The position numbers were made by a program, and so were the translations under genes. A stretch of 64,000 nt of DNA from Massilibacteroides sp. (GTDB lineage: Bacteria > Bacteroidota > Bacteroidia > Bacteroidales > Tannerellaceae). The DNA is taken from positions 39,738 through 103,737 of the forward strand of contig NZ_JAQWCQ010000004.1 in NCBI RefSeq assembly GCF_028705895.1. Reading direction: 5' to 3'. Below the pieces are notes generated by a model that saw only the letters and a program-made list of their open reading frames with translations, ran no database searches and was not told where the DNA came from. Below are positions 35,483 through 45,883 of this stretch, one piece after another. Each line of letters opens with the position of its first letter. The stretch's first letter is position 1.

Positions 35483-36037
35483 ATGGATGTGACTACGGAG
35501 ACAAAAAAATTTAATAAACTTTTTGCAGATTATCATGGTTTGTTTGTTCGTTTTGCTAATACTTATATAAATGATGAGGCAACAGCGGAAGACATAGCCA
35601 TTGAAGCAATCATGTATTATTGGAAAAATCGTCATAATCTTACTCATGAATCTAATATCCCGGCATATATACTTGAGGTAATCAAGCATAAATGTCTTAA
35701 TTATCTCCGTCATATTCGTGTTCGTGAGGATGTGGAACAGCATCTTCTGAAACATATGCAACGAGTAAACAACCTTCGTATAGCTACACTTGAAGCTTGT
35801 GATCCACAAGAATTATTTAGTCTTGAAGCTCAGGAACTAATTGATCAGGCGCTGGCCATGATGCCGGAAAAGACAAGACAAATTTTTATGATGAGTCGAT
35901 ATGAAAATAAAACGTATCAGGAAATTGCAGAACACTTTTCTTTATCTGTTAAAAGTGTAGAATTTCATATCTCAAAAGCTTTGAAAATATTAAGATATAA
36001 GTTGAAGGATTATATAACGCTTATATTATTTCTGTAA
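35483..36037 (+). CDS. RNA polymerase ECF sigma factor (Bacteroidota PUL type)
   Basis: Sigma70 region 2/4 pattern; MMPEKTRQIFMMSRYENKTYQEIAEHFSLSVKSVEFHISKALKILR. Confidence 0.92.
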   Translation: MDVTTETKKFNKLFADYHGLFVRFANTYINDEATAEDIAIEAIMYYWKNRHNLTHESNIPAYILEVIKHKCLNYLRHIRVREDVEQHLLKHMQRVNNLRIATLEACDPQELFSLEAQELIDQALAMMPEKTRQIFMMSRYENKTYQEIAEHFSLSVKSVEFHISKALKILRYKLKDYITLILFL

Positions 36038-36094
36038 AATAATTATTTCTATACTTTATTAGGGGGTATATCTTCTGAGGTGCTTATATTGTAT

Positions 36095-37045
36095 ATGGAT
36101 AGAAAAATCTTATATCGTTTTTTCTCTGGGACAGCTTCTTTTGAAGAGGAAGCTGCCGTTTGTGATTGGGCAGATGGCTCCGATGAGAATAAAAAAGAAA
36201 TAATAAGAGAGAGAAAATATTTTGATCTCCTGTTGTTTCGAAAACAAGAACATCTTTATCCAGTTAAGAAATCCAATCGGACTAATCTACCTTATATTTT
36301 ATATAAGTCTTTGATGATTGCTGCTGCTATCTCCGTTTTATTTGTTTCTCTTCTTTATATATATGATAATATAAACGAAAAACTTATAGAAGCCGAGATT
36401 ACAGATAATAAGATAACTGTCCCTCCCGGTCAGCGGGTTAATTTGACATTGTCTGATGGTACGAATATCTGGTTGAATGCTTGTAGTGAGATGATATACC
36501 CGTCATCTTTCAGAGGAGAGAAACGTATTGTTTCTTTAAAAGGAGAAGCTTATTTTGATGTAGCCAAAAATGAAGAACATCCTTTTATAGTAGAAACAAA
36601 TAAATGTGATATTAAAGTTTTAGGCACTAAATTTAATGTGCAGGTAGATGAAATTAATTGTGACTTTGCTGTCGCACTCCTTGAAGGAGCGATCGAATTA
36701 ACCAATAAATTAAATGACGAACCGATAGTTTTACTTTCTCCTATGCAAAAAGTAGAATTGAAAAATGGCCGCTTTTTCGTTGACTCTATTCGTGACTTTG
36801 ATAGTTTCAGATGGAAAGAAGGGTTGATTTGTTTTGAAAATATTCAGTTCACAGAGTTGATGAAACGATTCGAAAAAATATATGACATACGTATTATTGT
36901 ACAGAATAAAGCACTCAAAGATTATGTATGTAGTGGGAAATGTCGTGTAGCTGATGGCGTTGATTTTATCTTACATGTTTTACGTAGAAACAGGGATTTC
37001 TCCTTTGAAAGAAATGAGGATAATACGATTATCTATATAGAATAA
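36095..37045 (+). CDS. FecR-family anti-sigma factor
   Basis: VPPGQRVNLTLSDGTNIWLNACSEMIYPSSF, GEAYFDVAKNEEHPFIVETN. Start set to ATG 36095. Confidence 0.93.
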   Translation: MDRKILYRFFSGTASFEEEAAVCDWADGSDENKKEIIRERKYFDLLLFRKQEHLYPVKKSNRTNLPYILYKSLMIAAAISVLFVSLLYIYDNINEKLIEAEITDNKITVPPGQRVNLTLSDGTNIWLNACSEMIYPSSFRGEKRIVSLKGEAYFDVAKNEEHPFIVETNKCDIKVLGTKFNVQVDEINCDFAVALLEGAIELTNKLNDEPIVLLSPMQKVELKNGRFFVDSIRDFDSFRWKEGLICFENIQFTELMKRFEKIYDIRIIVQNKALKDYVCSGKCRVADGVDFILHVLRRNRDFSFERNEDNTIIYIE

Positions 37046-37107
37046 ATGTCTAACCTTAAATTTAAAAGAACATGCCTATGACATAGAATATGCCTTAATC
37101 ACAAAAC

Positions 37108-37178
37108 TAAAAAAGGCGATGAATCTCGACCATTCACCGCCTGATGATTAACACTCTTAAAAAAATGTATTAACCTTA
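37108..37178 (-). ncRNA. Candidate antisense sRNA in susC leader (DonS-like)
   Basis: Minus strand GGCGGTGAAT-ggtcgag-ATTCATCGCC-TTTTTT is a complete intrinsic terminator (one G-U pair); on the plus strand the stem has an A/C mismatch and no T run. A TAACTTTG -7-like box on the minus strand (plus 37185-37192) would start a ~70-nt RNA; no clear -33 box seen. Confidence 0.45.
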
Positions 37179-37179
37179 T

Positions 37180-40100
37180 ATGTACAAAGTTATGAATAAA
37201 ATCTCTTTGTCGCGATTTTGCTGTGTACCGAAATCACGACGTAAACAATTATTCAGGATTATGAAGATAACCTATCTTTTATTATTTGTCGGCATTTTCT
37301 GTTTACATGCCGAAAACACAATGTCCCAGAATATTACCCTGCGAGGTAATAACTTGTCAGTGAAAAACTATTTGAATACTATTGAAGAACAAACAGAGTT
37401 CCTATTCATTTATGATGCTGATGTTAATGTAAACGAAAAAATCTCAGTAGATATGGTCGGTAAACCAATCCTTGAGGTTTTGGATAATCTCTCATCCCGA
37501 TTAGGCCTGACTTATTATCAGGAGGGAACGTATATTGTTTTGTCAAAACGAAAGAAACCCTCCGGGAATGTACTTCCAATCGTAGCGCAACAAAAGAAAA
37601 CAATTACAGGTATTGTTACTGATGCTTTAGGCGAACCTATTATTGGGGCCAATGTAATTGAAAAAGGGACAACCAATGGTCTTGTGACGGATTTTGATGG
37701 AAATTTCTCTATAGAAGTTGACGCGGATGCTATAATTCAGGTTTCTTATATCGGCTATAATACGCAGGAAGTAAAAGTTGGGAGTCAATTGTCTCTGATA
37801 ATTAAACTTGTAGAGGATACGCAGGCTTTGAGCGAAATCGTAATCGTTGGATACGGAACGCAGACTAAAGTTAACTTAACTGGTGCAGTTGGTACTATAG
37901 CCAAAGATGATTTGCTTGACCGTCCTGTGACGAACGTTTCTTCTGCTATTCAAGGCCTGACTCCCGGGGTTACCGTCACTTCCGGAACAGGTCGTCCTGG
38001 TCAGGATGGTTCTACCATTCGCATACGTGGGGTAGGGACATTAAATACGGCTGATCCGTATATCCTTGTTGACGGTATCGAAACAGGAACAATTAATCAG
38101 ATTGACCCGAATGATATAGAATCTATGTCTATATTGAAGGATGCGGCTTCTGCTGCAATTTATGGTTCGAAAGCGGCCAACGGAGTAATTCTTATAACGA
38201 CAAAACGTGGAAAGATAGGTAAGCCTACTGTTTCATATAGTGGCAATGTGAGTCTGTCGAACGTGGCAACATTGATTGACCGTCTGAATTCTTACGATCA
38301 TGCACGCTTATATAACTATGCGTTGACGCAGGATGGATCAGCACCTCGTTTTACAGAAGAAGATATTCAATTATTTAAGGATGGTACAGATCCCTATGGT
38401 CACCCGAATACGGTTTGGACAGATTATATTTACAGAACAGGATTTATGCATAAACATAACCTGAATGTGAGTGGAGGTTCGGAAGATGTGAAATATATGG
38501 CTTCAACCGGATTTTTAGGACAGGAAGGAACCTTGAAAAATTCAGATAGACAACAATTTAATATGCGTACGAATCTGGATATCAAACTGTCTGAGAAATT
38601 TAATATGCGTACCAATATGGCCTTTATTCATAACAATTACTCTGATCCTAATGCTTCTTATGGTGGGGGATATTCAGGATTTATATGGCAGGCAGATCGT
38701 ATTGCTCCCTGGATTCCGTATAAAAAAGAAGATGGTACATATGGATCTATCTCTGACGGAAACCCGGCTGCATGGATTGATATTGATAGTAGAATAAACT
38801 ATACACAACAGAACTTTTCAGGAGCGTTGGCCTTTGATTATAATATTCTTAAAGATTTGACCTTTACACTTCAAGGTGCATACGTGACAGATATTAAAGA
38901 AACAAAGGATTTCCGTAAAGAATGCTGGTATGATGATGTAAACTATCATGGGCCTGATCAATTAACAGAAACAATAGCACGATGGAGTCGTTATACGCTT
39001 GATGCGTTGATGAACTATAGTAAAACTTTCAATCAGGATCATAACTTTAAGGTTATGACAGGTTATAAGATTGAAAAATATAACAGCCGGGAACTTAAAG
39101 CGTTCAGGAAAAGTTTTCCGAATAGTTCGTTAACTGACCTGAATGCCGGCGATGCTTCCACACAGACAAATAGTGGTTATTCAAGGGAATTAGCAATGAT
39201 GTCTTATTTTGGTCGTATAAATTATGACTATCAAGGAAAGTATTTGTTTGAAGCGGATTTCCGTGCTGATGCTTCTTCTCGTTTTGCCAAAGGATATCGT
39301 TGGGGATATTTTCCTGCATTCTCTGCGGGATGGCGTATTTCTGAAGAAGGTTTTATGGAAAAATCGAAAGACTGGTTGCAATCATTAAAGATAAGAGCTT
39401 CTTGGGGGCAATTAGGAAATCAGGAGGCTTTGTCTGATTATTATCCATCTTTGACGACTCTGTATATTGGAAAAAACTTCCCGTTCAATGACGTATTGCA
39501 TCAAGGAATTACTCAGACAGCCCACAAAATTTCAAGTATTTCATGGGAGAAAGCCACAAACTGGGGAGTCGGTTTTGATGCCAGCTTTTTGGATGAGTTT
39601 ACTTTCACCGCTGAATATTATGATCGTAAGACAACAGGGATTATTATGAATGTTCCTGTTCCTAAAACGTTTGGAACTACAAGTGCTTATCAAGATAATG
39701 TCGGGGCATTACGTAATAGTGGTATTGAAATGAGCTTTAGTTGGAATCACCCGTTTAATAAAGATTGGAGAATGGGTATTCATGCTAATTTCGCTTACAA
39801 TAAAAATAAATTATTGGATTTGGGAGGTGTTGATGAAACGATTGATGGTTATATGATTAACCGTGTTGGTGAGCCTTACCAATCATTCTATGTATATGTT
39901 GCTGATGGCTTGTTCCAAAGTGATGATGAAGCTGCTGCTTATGAGTCAGAATATGGCAATCCATGGTCTTTGCCGTTCAAAGGCGGTGACCTTAAAATAA
40001 AAGATGTGGATGGCGATAAAAAGCTGACGGAGGATGATCGCGTAGTAAGAGGTTCGCAACAGCCGAAAGGCACATACGGTCTAACTCTGGCTGGAGGTTG

Positions 40101-40548
40101 GAAAAACTTTGATGTGTCAGTCTTTATGCAAGGGATAACAGGAACAAACCGTTACTTCGATTATACCGTTAGTGGTTTGTTTGAAGGAGAAACATCCCAC
40201 CCGAGTTCAAATTGGTTGAATGCCTGGACACCCGAAAATAAAAATACGGACTGGCCGCGTGTTTTTTTAGATGATAGATCTGTTAGTGCGCCCAATAAAG
40301 CCAGAACAACTTTCTGGTGTATGAATACTAATTACTTGCGTATAAAGAATATTAATTTCAGCTACACTTTGCCTAAATCGATTCTTGGTAAATTAGGTAT
40401 CGCTAATGCTAAAGTCTATTATACGGGTGAAAATCTCTTTACAATTGATGATCTGCCATTCAATGTTGATCCTGAATCAGCTTCGGGTAACCTGAATGTT
40501 TATCCAATCAGTAAAAGTCATTCTTTCGGTATTAATGTAACGTTCTAA
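37180..40548 (+). CDS. SusC/RagA-family TonB-dependent outer membrane protein with N-terminal STN domain
   Basis: STN domain (LSVKNYLNTIEEQTEFLFIYDADV), CarboxypepD_reg (GIVTDALGEPIIGANVIEKGTTNG), TonB box/plug (EIVIVGYGTQTKVNLTGAV), SusC barrel. Confidence 0.97.
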   Translation: MYKVMNKISLSRFCCVPKSRRKQLFRIMKITYLLLFVGIFCLHAENTMSQNITLRGNNLSVKNYLNTIEEQTEFLFIYDADVNVNEKISVDMVGKPILEVLDNLSSRLGLTYYQEGTYIVLSKRKKPSGNVLPIVAQQKKTITGIVTDALGEPIIGANVIEKGTTNGLVTDFDGNFSIEVDADAIIQVSYIGYNTQEVKVGSQLSLIIKLVEDTQALSEIVIVGYGTQTKVNLTGAVGTIAKDDLLDRPVTNVSSAIQGLTPGVTVTSGTGRPGQDGSTIRIRGVGTLNTADPYILVDGIETGTINQIDPNDIESMSILKDAASAAIYGSKAANGVILITTKRGKIGKPTVSYSGNVSLSNVATLIDRLNSYDHARLYNYALTQDGSAPRFTEEDIQLFKDGTDPYGHPNTVWTDYIYRTGFMHKHNLNVSGGSEDVKYMASTGFLGQEGTLKNSDRQQFNMRTNLDIKLSEKFNMRTNMAFIHNNYSDPNASYGGGYSGFIWQADRIAPWIPYKKEDGTYGSISDGNPAAWIDIDSRINYTQQNFSGALAFDYNILKDLTFTLQGAYVTDIKETKDFRKECWYDDVNYHGPDQLTETIARWSRYTLDALMNYSKTFNQDHNFKVMTGYKIEKYNSRELKAFRKSFPNSSLTDLNAGDASTQTNSGYSRELAMMSYFGRINYDYQGKYLFEADFRADASSRFAKGYRWGYFPAFSAGWRISEEGFMEKSKDWLQSLKIRASWGQLGNQEALSDYYPSLTTLYIGKNFPFNDVLHQGITQTAHKISSISWEKATNWGVGFDASFLDEFTFTAEYYDRKTTGIIMNVPVPKTFGTTSAYQDNVGALRNSGIEMSFSWNHPFNKDWRMGIHANFAYNKNKLLDLGGVDETIDGYMINRVGEPYQSFYVYVADGLFQSDDEAAAYESEYGNPWSLPFKGGDLKIKDVDGDKKLTEDDRVVRGSQQPKGTYGLTLAGGWKNFDVSVFMQGITGTNRYFDYTVSGLFEGETSHPSSNWLNAWTPENKNTDWPRVFLDDRSVSAPNKARTTFWCMNTNYLRIKNINFSYTLPKSILGKLGIANAKVYYTGENLFTIDDLPFNVDPESASGNLNVYPISKSHSFGINVTF

Positions 40549-40560
40549 TTGTAACCAGAT

Positions 40561-42255
40561 ATGAAACTAACAAAAATAATAGGCCTGGCCTTATGCCTGG
40601 CCGGAACAGGAGTTCTGAGTTCCTGTGATGATTTCTTTGATGTCTATCCTAAAGATCAATTAACGCCTTCTACTTTTTGGAAGACGAAAAGTGACGCGGA
40701 TGCAGCTGTAACTGCGGCCTACGAATGGTGGGTAAATAACTTGTTGGGCTCAAAATTTATCTTTTATGAAGATTGTATGTCCGATATCGGATTTAACTAT
40801 ACAAATGCATCACAATATAAGATGGCGGGAAATGGAGCCATATCTCCATTCTCTACTCCCAATTATTACCAATACGAAAATATTCGCCGTTGTAATTTTG
40901 TAATTGAAAATATAGATAAAATTCCTGTTTCGGAACTTTCTGAAACAGAGAAAAAGGAATTTTTAGCACAAGTACGTACAATTCGTGCTTATCACCATGC
41001 TTATTTAGCAACATGGTACGGTGATGCGGTGATTGTGGACTTTCTTCCTCAGTCGGCAGAAGAAGCAAAACTTCCAAGAGAACCGGAAGCAAAGGTGAAA
41101 GAATATGCCATGACTGAATTGTATTGGTGTGCAGAAAATATTTCTGAAAAGCCAGCAGAAAAAGGACGTATTGGAAGAGGAACCGTATTGTCTATGATTG
41201 CTCGTTTCAATCTTCTGTGGGGAAATTATGCGGAAGCGTTGGATGCAGCAAATAAGATAATTGCCTTAGGGCAATATTCGTTGGATAGTGATTTCCTTAA
41301 GATGTTTTCAATGACAGGACAAGATTCAAAGGAAGTTATTTATTCCTATCAACATTTAAAAACTACATTCAAATATTCCGATGTAATTCGTTTTTACAAT
41401 AATGCAGATGGTGGATGGGCAAGTTTTGTCCCTACACAAAATCTGGTTGATATGTTCGAGATGAGTAATGGAAAAACGATTGATGAAAGTGATTCCGGTT
41501 ATGATCCTGTTCATCCATTTTATAATCGTGATCCACGCTTGAAAAATACAGTGATTTACTCCGGTCAGGATTGGATAGGCCGTAATAATGTTCCTCGAAT
41601 TTTTAACACTCTTGACAAGTCACTTCCTAACGGATCTTTGAATAATGATTACTATATTGCGGCTAATAATGCTTCCCATACGGGGATGTTGTGGGCAAAA
41701 TATTTGTATCCTAATCAATCGCAGTATTCTACATCTATGAATGATGATGCTTTGTGTCCTATCATTTTCCGTTATGCTGAAGTATTACTTACCAAGGCAG
41801 AGTGTTTGGTGGAGTTGAATCAGAGTTTGTCTGAAGCTCTGGATATCATTGACCAATTACGCTTGCGTGGCGGACATGTTGCTCTTGACCGTACAAAATA
41901 TACGACACAAGCCAAAGTACGCGAGTTGGTAAGGAAAGAACGTACAATTGAGTTGGCCGGTGAAGGTTTCCGTTATGAAGATATTGTTCGTTGGGACGAA
42001 TATGACGCAAACGGAGCCAAAACCGGCAGAAAGGTGGCAGAATCGGTTATGCCGGGAGACCTTCTTCGTCTCTGTGGAACTGTGGACTATGAAGAGCCGG
42101 ATCCTGACCGTCGTGCTATCATTAATTTGAATGCTGCCCGTGAAGACCGCTTGGTGGAAGTTCGCTATTTTGATAAGAAACAATTCCACTTACCGATTCC
42201 ACAGGCCGAAATGGATGCTAACCCTCAATTGGTGCAAAATGCTGGTTATAATTAA
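40561..42255 (+). CDS. SusD/RagB-family surface lipoprotein
   Basis: Lipobox LSSCDDFFDV, DQLTPSTFWKTKSDADAAVTAAY, LRLRGGH, ERTIELAGEGFRYEDIVRW. Confidence 0.96.
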   Translation: MKLTKIIGLALCLAGTGVLSSCDDFFDVYPKDQLTPSTFWKTKSDADAAVTAAYEWWVNNLLGSKFIFYEDCMSDIGFNYTNASQYKMAGNGAISPFSTPNYYQYENIRRCNFVIENIDKIPVSELSETEKKEFLAQVRTIRAYHHAYLATWYGDAVIVDFLPQSAEEAKLPREPEAKVKEYAMTELYWCAENISEKPAEKGRIGRGTVLSMIARFNLLWGNYAEALDAANKIIALGQYSLDSDFLKMFSMTGQDSKEVIYSYQHLKTTFKYSDVIRFYNNADGGWASFVPTQNLVDMFEMSNGKTIDESDSGYDPVHPFYNRDPRLKNTVIYSGQDWIGRNNVPRIFNTLDKSLPNGSLNNDYYIAANNASHTGMLWAKYLYPNQSQYSTSMNDDALCPIIFRYAEVLLTKAECLVELNQSLSEALDIIDQLRLRGGHVALDRTKYTTQAKVRELVRKERTIELAGEGFRYEDIVRWDEYDANGAKTGRKVAESVMPGDLLRLCGTVDYEEPDPDRRAIINLNAAREDRLVEVRYFDKKQFHLPIPQAEMDANPQLVQNAGYN

Positions 42256-42264
42256 TCCTATAGT

Positions 42265-43434
42265 TTGATGAAGAAGATTGTTTTATTATTATTTCTTGCA
42301 GTTGCCGCTCAAGTGGCAACTGCGCAGATAAAGATTCTGTACGGTCCTTATCTGCAAAATGTGAAAGACGCAGAGGCTACGATTGTCTGGGAAGCTGATA
42401 AACCATCTGTCGGATGGGTAGAATTAGCCCCTGATGACGGGACACATTTCTATGGTGAAGAGAGGCCGAAGTTTTTCGATACGACCAATGGCGTTAAGAA
42501 TACGTCTTTGCTTCACTCCGTAAAGATAAAGGGACTAAAACCGGCTACGACCTACCGTTATCGTATCTATTCTCAGGAGGTGTTGTCGCACGAAGGTATT
42601 TCCGTAATATACGGACGTGTAGCTGCATCTGATGTTTATAAGAAGAAACCGTTGACTTTTACGACCTGTGATCCCGATAAACCGGATATGTCTTTTCTTA
42701 TGATCAATGATATTCATGGACGTGAAAATATTATCACTAAACTTTTGAACGCTGCGGATTATAAGAAAAAAGATCTGATAATCTTCAATGGAGACATGGT
42801 TTCGGAGTTTAAAGACCGGGAAACGATCTTTAATGGGTTTATGAAAGAAAGCATAGACTTGTTTGCTTCCGAGCAACCGATGTATTATGCGCGCGGCAAC
42901 CATGAAACCCGTGGGGAATTTGCCACTTCGTTTCAGAACTATTTTTCTCCTAAAGAACCATTCTTGTATTATGTATTCAAGCAAGGACCTGTTTGTTTTA
43001 TCATGTTAGATACAGGAGAAGACAAACCTGATTCGGATATCGAATACAGTGGTATTACCGACTACGACGGTTATCGTACCGAACAGATGGAATGGATGAA
43101 GACTCTTCGTGATAATAAAGATTTCCAACAAGCCCGATTTAAGGTGGTAATTGCGCATATGCCGCCCTCTAAAGAACCGGGAATATGGCACGGACAAAAA
43201 GACGTTTTGGATAAATTCGTCCCTATCCTGAACGAAATCGGGGTTGACTTAATGCTGTGCGGACATCTTCACCGTAATGTGTATGAAGAACCCAGTTCAT
43301 TAATTAAATTCCCGGTATTGGTTAATTCTAACAACAGTGTTGTTTCTGTAAAAACAGAGGGCAATCAACTGAATTTAGAGGTGCTGGATCTGGATGGTAA
43401 AGTTGTAACAAAGAAATCTTATTCAGCAAAATAG
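42265..43434 (+). CDS. Secreted metallophosphoesterase (calcineurin-like, purple-acid-phosphatase-like N-domain)
   Basis: Signal peptide (AAQVATAQ), MINDIHGR, IIFNGDMV, ARGNHETRG, IAHMPP, LCGHLHRN metal-binding motifs. Confidence 0.9.
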   Translation: MMKKIVLLLFLAVAAQVATAQIKILYGPYLQNVKDAEATIVWEADKPSVGWVELAPDDGTHFYGEERPKFFDTTNGVKNTSLLHSVKIKGLKPATTYRYRIYSQEVLSHEGISVIYGRVAASDVYKKKPLTFTTCDPDKPDMSFLMINDIHGRENIITKLLNAADYKKKDLIIFNGDMVSEFKDRETIFNGFMKESIDLFASEQPMYYARGNHETRGEFATSFQNYFSPKEPFLYYVFKQGPVCFIMLDTGEDKPDSDIEYSGITDYDGYRTEQMEWMKTLRDNKDFQQARFKVVIAHMPPSKEPGIWHGQKDVLDKFVPILNEIGVDLMLCGHLHRNVYEEPSSLIKFPVLVNSNNSVVSVKTEGNQLNLEVLDLDGKVVTKKSYSAK

Positions 43435-43543: not shown

Positions 43544-45883
43544 TTATTCTTCGCTTAACGAGTAAGGACGATCTGTTCCTTTAAATACCCGTTGTTTATT
43601 GGGCTTGGAAGACATGGTAAATTCCAATATGCCTCCGTTCATTATGTCTTCTTGGGTAATATAACCTTTGGTATAAGGCTTGCCGTTTAGTTTAACCGCT
43701 TTGACATAGCGGTTTTTATCGCTGACTTTGTCGGCTTTGATCGTTAGCGAGTTGCCGTTTTCCAATTGAACTTTCATGTAGGGTAGGTAAGGAGCTCCTA
43801 ATACGTATTGGTTTGTTCCCGGACAAACGGGATAGAATCCCATGGCAGAAAGGATATACCACGCCGACATCTGCCCACAGTCATCATTTCCACACAATCC
43901 ATCAATGTTGTTCTTATACATACGGTTCATGATTTCGCGTTGCCAGTATTGTGTTTTCCATGGAGCCGAAGTCCAGGCATAAAGGAAAGCCACATGATGA
44001 CTTGGCTCGTTACCATGTACATAACCTCCTAAAAGACCTTCCTTGGTTACATCTTCCGTATGGGCGAAAAACTCATCAGGCAAATGCATATCGAACAAAG
44101 AATCCAAGCGGTTCACGAAAACTTTATCTCCTCCTGTCAGTTCAATCAGCGAATTGACATCGTGGGGAACGTATAACGAATAATTCAACGCATTACCCTC
44201 AATAAAGCCCTGTCCATGCGTACTCATCACATCGAAGTTTTCTTTCCACTCCCCGTTAGTATAACGTGGACGGGCAATTCCCAGTTTCGTGTCAAAAATA
44301 TTCTTGAAAGAATTCGCTCTCTTCTTGTAGGTAGCAGCCGTTTCAGTATTACCGGCTGATTGAGCCGTTTTGTAAATAGTCCAGTCGTCATAAGCATATT
44401 CGAGCGTCAGAGAAGCTGAACTTCCGCTTCTTTCAATAGGAACATAACCAAGTTTCATATATTCTCCTGTCCCTTCATAATAAGGAATCGTAGAACTGTT
44501 AACCATCGCTTTCAATGCCTCTTTCTTGTTGATCGGTAGCCCTTTGGCAATCGCATCAGCTAATACGGATACCGAATGGTAGCCAATCATACACCAGTTC
44601 TCATTTGCCATATGGCTCCATACCGGAAGTGCTTTATGTACACTTTGTTCTCCATGTTTCATCATTGAGTTTACAATATCTGTATTGACCTGACGATTGA
44701 TGATATTGAATAGCGGATGCAAAGAACGATAGGTATCCCAAACGGAAAATACCGTATAATTAGTGAAGTCTTTTGCCTGATGAATATTCTGATCTACTCC
44801 TCTGTATTGACCGTCCACGTCAGTATAGATACTCGGATTGATCATCGTATGGTATAGCGAAGTATAGAGCATAGCTAATTGATCATCCGTTCCCTTTGCA
44901 TCGATCAGAGCTAAAGCATCACTCCAATCCTTATTGGCCGCAACAGCTAACTCATCAAAAGATTTACCTGCCGTTTCAGCCTGGAGATTCATCACAGCGC
45001 CTGCGCTACTTACCCCGGAAAGAGCAACTTTTATTTCAAGATCAGCAGATGCGTTCGGATCAAAATCAAAATAAGCCACTATTCTTCTGCCACCGATTTC
45101 AGGGAAATTATGCTTCTGGTCGAATTTCCGGTAGAATCCGCTATATTTCACTTCTCCTTTTTCTTCAAATCCATAATTTTTTATTGGTTTGGAGAAGGAA
45201 ACAGCGAAATAGGTATAATTCGTTCTTGCCCATCCATTGGTTATACGATAACCCGTTAACAACGTGTCGTTTTCAACACGGATACTTGCCCAAAGCACTT
45301 TGCCGTCATAATTGTAAATGCCATGAATCAGATCAAGAAGTATCCGTTGGTTTGTCTCTTTGGGATAAGTATATTTATGCACCCCTGCACGTTTGGTTGC
45401 GGTAAGTTGAGCTTTAACTCCATAATCGGCAAGCATCACTTCATAATAACCCGGACGGGAGATCTCTGTATCATGCGAAAAGCGCGAACGATAACCATGA
45501 TCCGGATCAGTCATTGTTCCCGGGTTGAGGCGTAACTCTCCGGTGGTCGGCATAATCAATATATCACCCAGATCGGAATGCCCTGTTCCACTGAAATGCG
45601 TATGACTGAACCCTACAATCGTACTGTCTTTGTGTTGATAACCGGCACAATACTCATAAACGCGAGCTTGATATTTTCCATCTACATTATGAGGGATCGT
45701 ATCCGTATCCGGACTTAATTGTACTAAACCAAAAGGAACACAGGCCCCGGGAAAAGTATGCCCCATTCCATTTGTCCCGATAATCGGATTTACGCGTTCT
45801 ACATTGGTTACCTGAGCGCTAAGCGTATTGGTTAAACTACCTGCTATTGTCAAACAGAAAATGAGTTTTCTTACATTTATCAT
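43544..45883 (-). CDS. GH92 family alpha-mannosidase
   Basis: VNPIIGTNGMGHTFPGACVPFGLVQLSPDT, GFSHTHFSGTGHSDLGDILIMPT, EPSHHVAFLYAWTSAPWKTQYWQREI, CGNDDCGQMSAWYILSAMGFYPVCPG. Confidence 0.95.
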   Translation of the reverse strand: MINVRKLIFCLTIAGSLTNTLSAQVTNVERVNPIIGTNGMGHTFPGACVPFGLVQLSPDTDTIPHNVDGKYQARVYEYCAGYQHKDSTIVGFSHTHFSGTGHSDLGDILIMPTTGELRLNPGTMTDPDHGYRSRFSHDTEISRPGYYEVMLADYGVKAQLTATKRAGVHKYTYPKETNQRILLDLIHGIYNYDGKVLWASIRVENDTLLTGYRITNGWARTNYTYFAVSFSKPIKNYGFEEKGEVKYSGFYRKFDQKHNFPEIGGRRIVAYFDFDPNASADLEIKVALSGVSSAGAVMNLQAETAGKSFDELAVAANKDWSDALALIDAKGTDDQLAMLYTSLYHTMINPSIYTDVDGQYRGVDQNIHQAKDFTNYTVFSVWDTYRSLHPLFNIINRQVNTDIVNSMMKHGEQSVHKALPVWSHMANENWCMIGYHSVSVLADAIAKGLPINKKEALKAMVNSSTIPYYEGTGEYMKLGYVPIERSGSSASLTLEYAYDDWTIYKTAQSAGNTETAATYKKRANSFKNIFDTKLGIARPRYTNGEWKENFDVMSTHGQGFIEGNALNYSLYVPHDVNSLIELTGGDKVFVNRLDSLFDMHLPDEFFAHTEDVTKEGLLGGYVHGNEPSHHVAFLYAWTSAPWKTQYWQREIMNRMYKNNIDGLCGNDDCGQMSAWYILSAMGFYPVCPGTNQYVLGAPYLPYMKVQLENGNSLTIKADKVSDKNRYVKAVKLNGKPYTKGYITQEDIMNGGILEFTMSSKPNKQRVFKGTDRPYSLSEE

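Follow-up and report, generated by a model that had tools for sequence, protein, structure and literature searches.

The closest described systems are the DonS-like RNAs, which according to PMC7366714 measure 78–128 nt and are cis-antisense to susC homologues. DonS and the PUL-associated cis-antisense RNAs of Bacteroides go back to Cao et al. 2016, as cited in PMC7366714 and PMC10994844, and such PUL-linked antisense RNAs have so far been known by transcriptomics from a few Bacteroides species. For B. thetaiotaomicron, both negative and positive correlations within antisense RNA/susC pairs are reported in PMC10994844, so that repression is not universal. A further system is FopS, a set of paralogous, mostly intergenic sRNAs with trans-acting copies that share a seed (PMC11697453).

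In the window (i.e., the whole stretch of 64,000 nucleotides that was analysed, part of contig 46 of a 3.6-Mb genome), a 146-bp gap with a FecR anti-sigma gene on its 5′ side and an STN-type susC on its 3′ side harbors an element that we read, with a probability of roughly 0.8, as a DonS-like cis-antisense sRNA of ~70 nt, predicted to be transcribed and to repress its own susC (Table 1). The PUL that it would control is best read as the GH92/phosphatase PUL under ECF sigma/FecR. Like DonS, the window RNA is short, divergent to a PUL susC homologue and opposite its 5′ end, with a predicted promoter and terminator of its own, and the GH92 gene beside the PUL fits a mannose-containing glycan. Indeed, the sequence-only reading had proposed a probable DonS-like sRNA, and this assignment stands, since the RNA is cis-antisense to a susC homologue as published (PMC7366714), although it is slightly shorter (~70 nt, with 70–111 nt and a median of 81 nt in the family, as counted from box-derived starts) than the DonS-like RNAs. 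In contrast to DonS of Bacteroides, the host is Massilibacteroides (Tannerellaceae) and the RNA is known here from sequence alone; note that the likeness relies on published descriptions of DonS and not on its sequence. As in FopS, the window RNA is small, has an intrinsic terminator and faces the translation initiation region of a susC, but it is one copy and is encoded opposite its own target. A FopS-type trans sRNA was rejected because of this single copy and because non-cognate pairing stays mostly at shuffle level. No Rfam family was found at the gathering threshold for the window RNA or for the susC leaders of 17 further loci, in a search that recovered GibS and a tRNA as positive controls. 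GibS (RF04182), likewise a Bacteroides sRNA with a terminator hairpin, was the only Bacteroides Rfam family that aligned, and membership was rejected since its 19.8 bits are far below the gathering value of 115. The kind of element is already known, the putative member in the window is new and is assigned to it by its architecture, and the definition of an architecture common to its members may add something useful.

Table 1. Features of the predicted antisense element and of the surrounding PUL (positions in the window)
Feature	Position	Strand	Basis
ECF sigma factor	35483..36037	+	Pfam Sigma70_r2 and Sigma70_r4_2
FecR-type anti-sigma factor, immediately 5′ of susC	36080..37045	+	Pfam FecR and FecR_C
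Candidate sense promoter, orthologue-conserved block TAACCTTAAAT ... GCCTATG, just 5′ of the antisense element	37051..37080	+	Orthologue alignment; tentative
Predicted cis-antisense sRNA, ~70 nt	37109..37178	-	-7 box position and terminator; start near 37178, end in U run
Terminator T run (TTTTTT)	37109..37114	-	Sequence; first T closes the stem
Terminator hairpin AGGCGGTGAAT-GGTCGAG-ATTCATCGCCT	37114..37142	-	Sequence, terminator scan, covariation
5′ hairpin of the sRNA, arms GGUUAAUAC / GUGUUAAUC	37146..37175	-	RNA fold, covariation, strand stability
-7 promoter box TAACTTTG, overlaps susC ATG	37185..37192	-	Exact fit to Bacteroides consensus TAnnTTTG
susC homologue with N-terminal STN extension (antisense target)	37192..40548	+	Pfam Plug, TonB_dep_Rec and CarbopepD_reg_2 above cut-off
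susD homologue	40561..42255	+	Annotated in PUL
Calcineurin-like phosphoesterase of the PUL	42265..43434	+	Annotated in PUL
GH92 glycosidase (alpha-mannosidase family), adjoins PUL	43544..45883	-	Annotated beside PUL

The terminator reads AGGCGGTGAATGGTCGAGATTCATCGCCT from 37142 to 37114 on the minus strand, with an 11-bp stem, one G-U pair and a 7-nt loop, and the minus-strand site 37142–37109 was by far the best terminator-like site of the scan within 35.4–38.4 kb. Both the sequence and the scan agree with the earlier claim of a minus-strand terminator with one G-U pair and a T run in the susC leader; the plus strand, as also claimed, shows an A/C mismatch in the same stem, then CTGATGATTAAC and no T run. 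Since both flanking genes lie on the plus strand, the minus-strand terminator serves no mRNA, and a bidirectional terminator for FecR was discarded because of the absent plus-strand T run. A small protein encoded by the RNA was discarded as well, no useful ORF being present within the ~70 nt. At -24.5 kcal/mol (z = -5.9), the fold of the 77-nt segment lies below those of all 200 shuffles, and covariance model R1 matches minus 37186–37107 at 67.7 bits, a score to be read with this locus belonging to the R1 training set. The susC start is given as 37180 in the ORF list, and the family-wide pattern puts the real start at 37192 (ATG 37192–37194), where the -7-like box, read from 37192 to 37185, overlaps the start codon as the sequence-only reading had it. 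No recognisable conserved -33 element was found 5′ of this box among the family loci. The STN domain of the window susC scores 21.0 bits, below the Pfam cut-off of 28.4. The block in front of the antisense element was rejected as a strict ECF promoter, its spacing being different among orthologues, and is kept as a tentative candidate. Around the susC ATG, an inverted repeat was also observed on the plus strand (CAAAG at 37185–37189 and CTTTG at 37205–37209), of which the first half falls in the -7 box and the second, on the coding side, is 56–71% conserved per base over 55 loci; it could be a regulator site, a promoter part or a leader stem.

In the mechanism that we propose, the housekeeping RNA polymerase would start from a promoter of the TAnnTTTG type with its -7 box embedded in the start codon of susC, and antisense transcription would run away from susC across the leader and stop at the intrinsic terminator, short of both the anti-sigma gene and the putative sense promoter. 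With a start ~13 nt before the ATG, the leader would be covered and the start codon spared, by a two-hairpin RNA whose complementarity to the susC 5′ leader is perfect up to this point. Once transcribed, the RNA would pair with the leader and lower susC translation or stability while the glycan is absent, and ECF sigma-driven sense transcription would overcome it on induction. The lower susC output without glycan is suggested by analogy with DonS (PMC7366714).

Using the own genome of the window, we found that each of the 26 STN-susC genes examined has a FecR homologue in front of it. When minus-strand terminators (≤ -14.8 kcal/mol) were scanned 50–200 bp upstream of the start, they were present in 16/26 STN-susC leaders compared to 0/26 non-STN susC (Fisher p about 1e-6) and 3/157 other ORFs (p about 1e-13), with a comparable plus-strand terminator in only one of the STN-susC leaders. 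A 17th locus (L016), identified by covariance model, shows the box together with a stem whose T tail is poorer. This recurrence of the antisense arrangement is not due to chance. Allowing one mismatch, we found the -7 box at the start codon of 15 of the 16 terminator-bearing STN-susC genes versus 2/10 without terminator and 9/157 ORFs, and its rarity on ordinary ORF starts makes a general translation signal a poor explanation of the box. The ~70-nt RNA covering the leader, as proposed earlier, therefore holds as a prediction, since its elements recur at 17/26 STN-susC and covary across species; the 5′ hairpin (37175–37146) and the recurrence at 16 other loci of the genome are additions to the sequence-only reading.

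Models R1–R3, built without the susC coding sequence and without the promoter box, extended this arrangement to relatives. R2 matches occurred in 47/67 genomes of the family, with at most 15 per genome. All 32 best loci of the family and class searches that were examined, of which four are not independent (L103 and L110 being training loci, L104 and L105 their orthologues), lie opposite an STN-susC, with FecR upstream in 30 (the other two are cut by contig ends) and the exact start-codon box in 30. The box, at most slightly relaxed, is on the start codon at 55 of the 57 family loci. An R1 match at L099 was rejected as a false positive, since it is the normal terminator of a SufD-like gene. In a sister genus (probably Parabacteroides), the direct orthologues of four genomes retain the box and the hairpins, with a change from G-U to A-U and different loops, whereas the terminator hairpin is weak or lost in the orthologous leaders (L037 and L038) of both congeners, two genomes matched to Massilibacteroides vaginae and to a Massilibacteroides MAG. 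Thus, gain and loss both occur, and the antisense element is dispensable at the window locus.

On the minus strand, compensatory changes maintain the structure itself. Although fitting to the structure biases the 11- and 57-locus alignments towards it, standard pairs made up 99.0% and 97.7% of their cells, with 13/19 and 17/19 pairs changed on both sides, respectively; no shuffle was as high, slid partners paired at only about 34–51%, and the MAFFT alignment A1, which was not structure-fitted, agrees (98.8% paired). Over the 57 loci, all pairs of the terminator hairpin vary with compensation (98.8% of cells paired), and G-U pairs are found on the minus strand at many positions. The region of the 5′ hairpin, just 5′ of the start codon, played no part in choosing the loci, and its minus-strand fold is the more stable one in 16/16 terminator-bearing leaders versus 6/10 without terminator and 15/26 non-STN ones. 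For the whole element including the terminator, the minus strand likewise has the more stable fold in 16/16, with similar z-scores on both strands at L012 and L022, and the earlier claim that the structure serves the minus strand is confirmed by this stability together with the lack of a plus-strand T run.

Such conservation of the 5′ hairpin bears directly on a rather unlikely reading, in which transcription itself limits susC, through RNA polymerase that loads on the start codon's promoter or collides with sense polymerase, and the RNA is a by-product. The position of the promoter exactly on the start codon at nearly all loci would fit, as would an antisense unit that ends before the presumed sense promoter, but interference needs no minus-strand 5′ hairpin kept by compensatory change. 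RNA pairing and promoter interference become directly distinguishable by silent mutations.

Predicted pairing energies bear on another, improbable reading, according to which the RNA also acts in trans on further susC leaders, as FopS RNAs do in B. thetaiotaomicron (PMC11697453). Some sister RNAs are indeed predicted to pair strongly with each other's leaders, down to -69 kcal/mol; for the window RNA, however, the best non-cognate pairing reaches -41.8 kcal/mol (L006) compared to -123.8 for its own leader, and most others remain within the range of shuffled leaders. As a separate observation, the antisense RNAs of four loci of the own genome (L014, L011, L009 and L007) are predicted to pair at -50 to -69 kcal/mol with the leaders of one another's susC genes, so that cross-regulation among PULs is possible.

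The orientation of the terminator and its location between FecR and susC would also suit an insulator that merely keeps stray antisense transcription from susC out of the sense promoter or the sigma and anti-sigma genes. We regard this as quite improbable, given that a -7 box at a fixed place and a second hairpin are conserved with the terminator and are mostly missing where it is missing. Finally, a plus-strand cis-regulatory element of the susC mRNA (attenuator or leader fold) is very improbable and a plus-strand terminator or attenuator was ruled out: inverted repeats fold somewhat on both strands, as the like z-scores of L012 and L022 illustrate, but the mismatch, the absent T run, the many minus-strand G-U pairs and the folding advantage of the minus strand, found in 16/16 loci whether the whole element or only its 5′ part is folded, all argue against it.

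Chances are about even, in our view, that a single structured RNA family, uncatalogued so far and spread across Bacteroidales, unites the antisense RNAs of the sigma/anti-sigma/STN-susC cassettes, with the start codon of susC serving at the same time as the -7 box of the antisense promoter. If so, each such PUL would inherit a three-layer switch (ECF sigma, anti-sigma and antisense RNA) moving as a unit. The predicted antisense RNAs are tied to one susC class, i.e., the STN-type behind ECF sigma/FecR, with the promoter fixed on the start codon, and this helps to explain which PULs carry an antisense RNA. Recognisable by sequence alone, PUL antisense RNAs can be found across a family with a covariance model, so that any genome of the Bacteroidales can be surveyed for them.

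At the order level, 23/26 loci face a susC and 22 have the box. R2 matches outside the family were found in few genomes; the absences carry little weight, since the searches at phylum and order level were strictly filtered and covered only ~22 scored candidates per genome. In the Bacteroidaceae genome G444, recognised as such by its GibS, the terminator is present at 3/5 STN-susC versus 0/17 others, with the exact box in one. The same genome displays weak R3 matches (L168 and L174–L178) to a set of closely similar copies that resemble FopS, and FopS may be derived from susC antisense RNAs or convergent with them. A comparable RNA with two hairpins, a CATATnTTTG box and no susC (L165/L166) is kept in both G444 and another Bacteroidaceae genome, G366, and is possibly a trans-acting relative.
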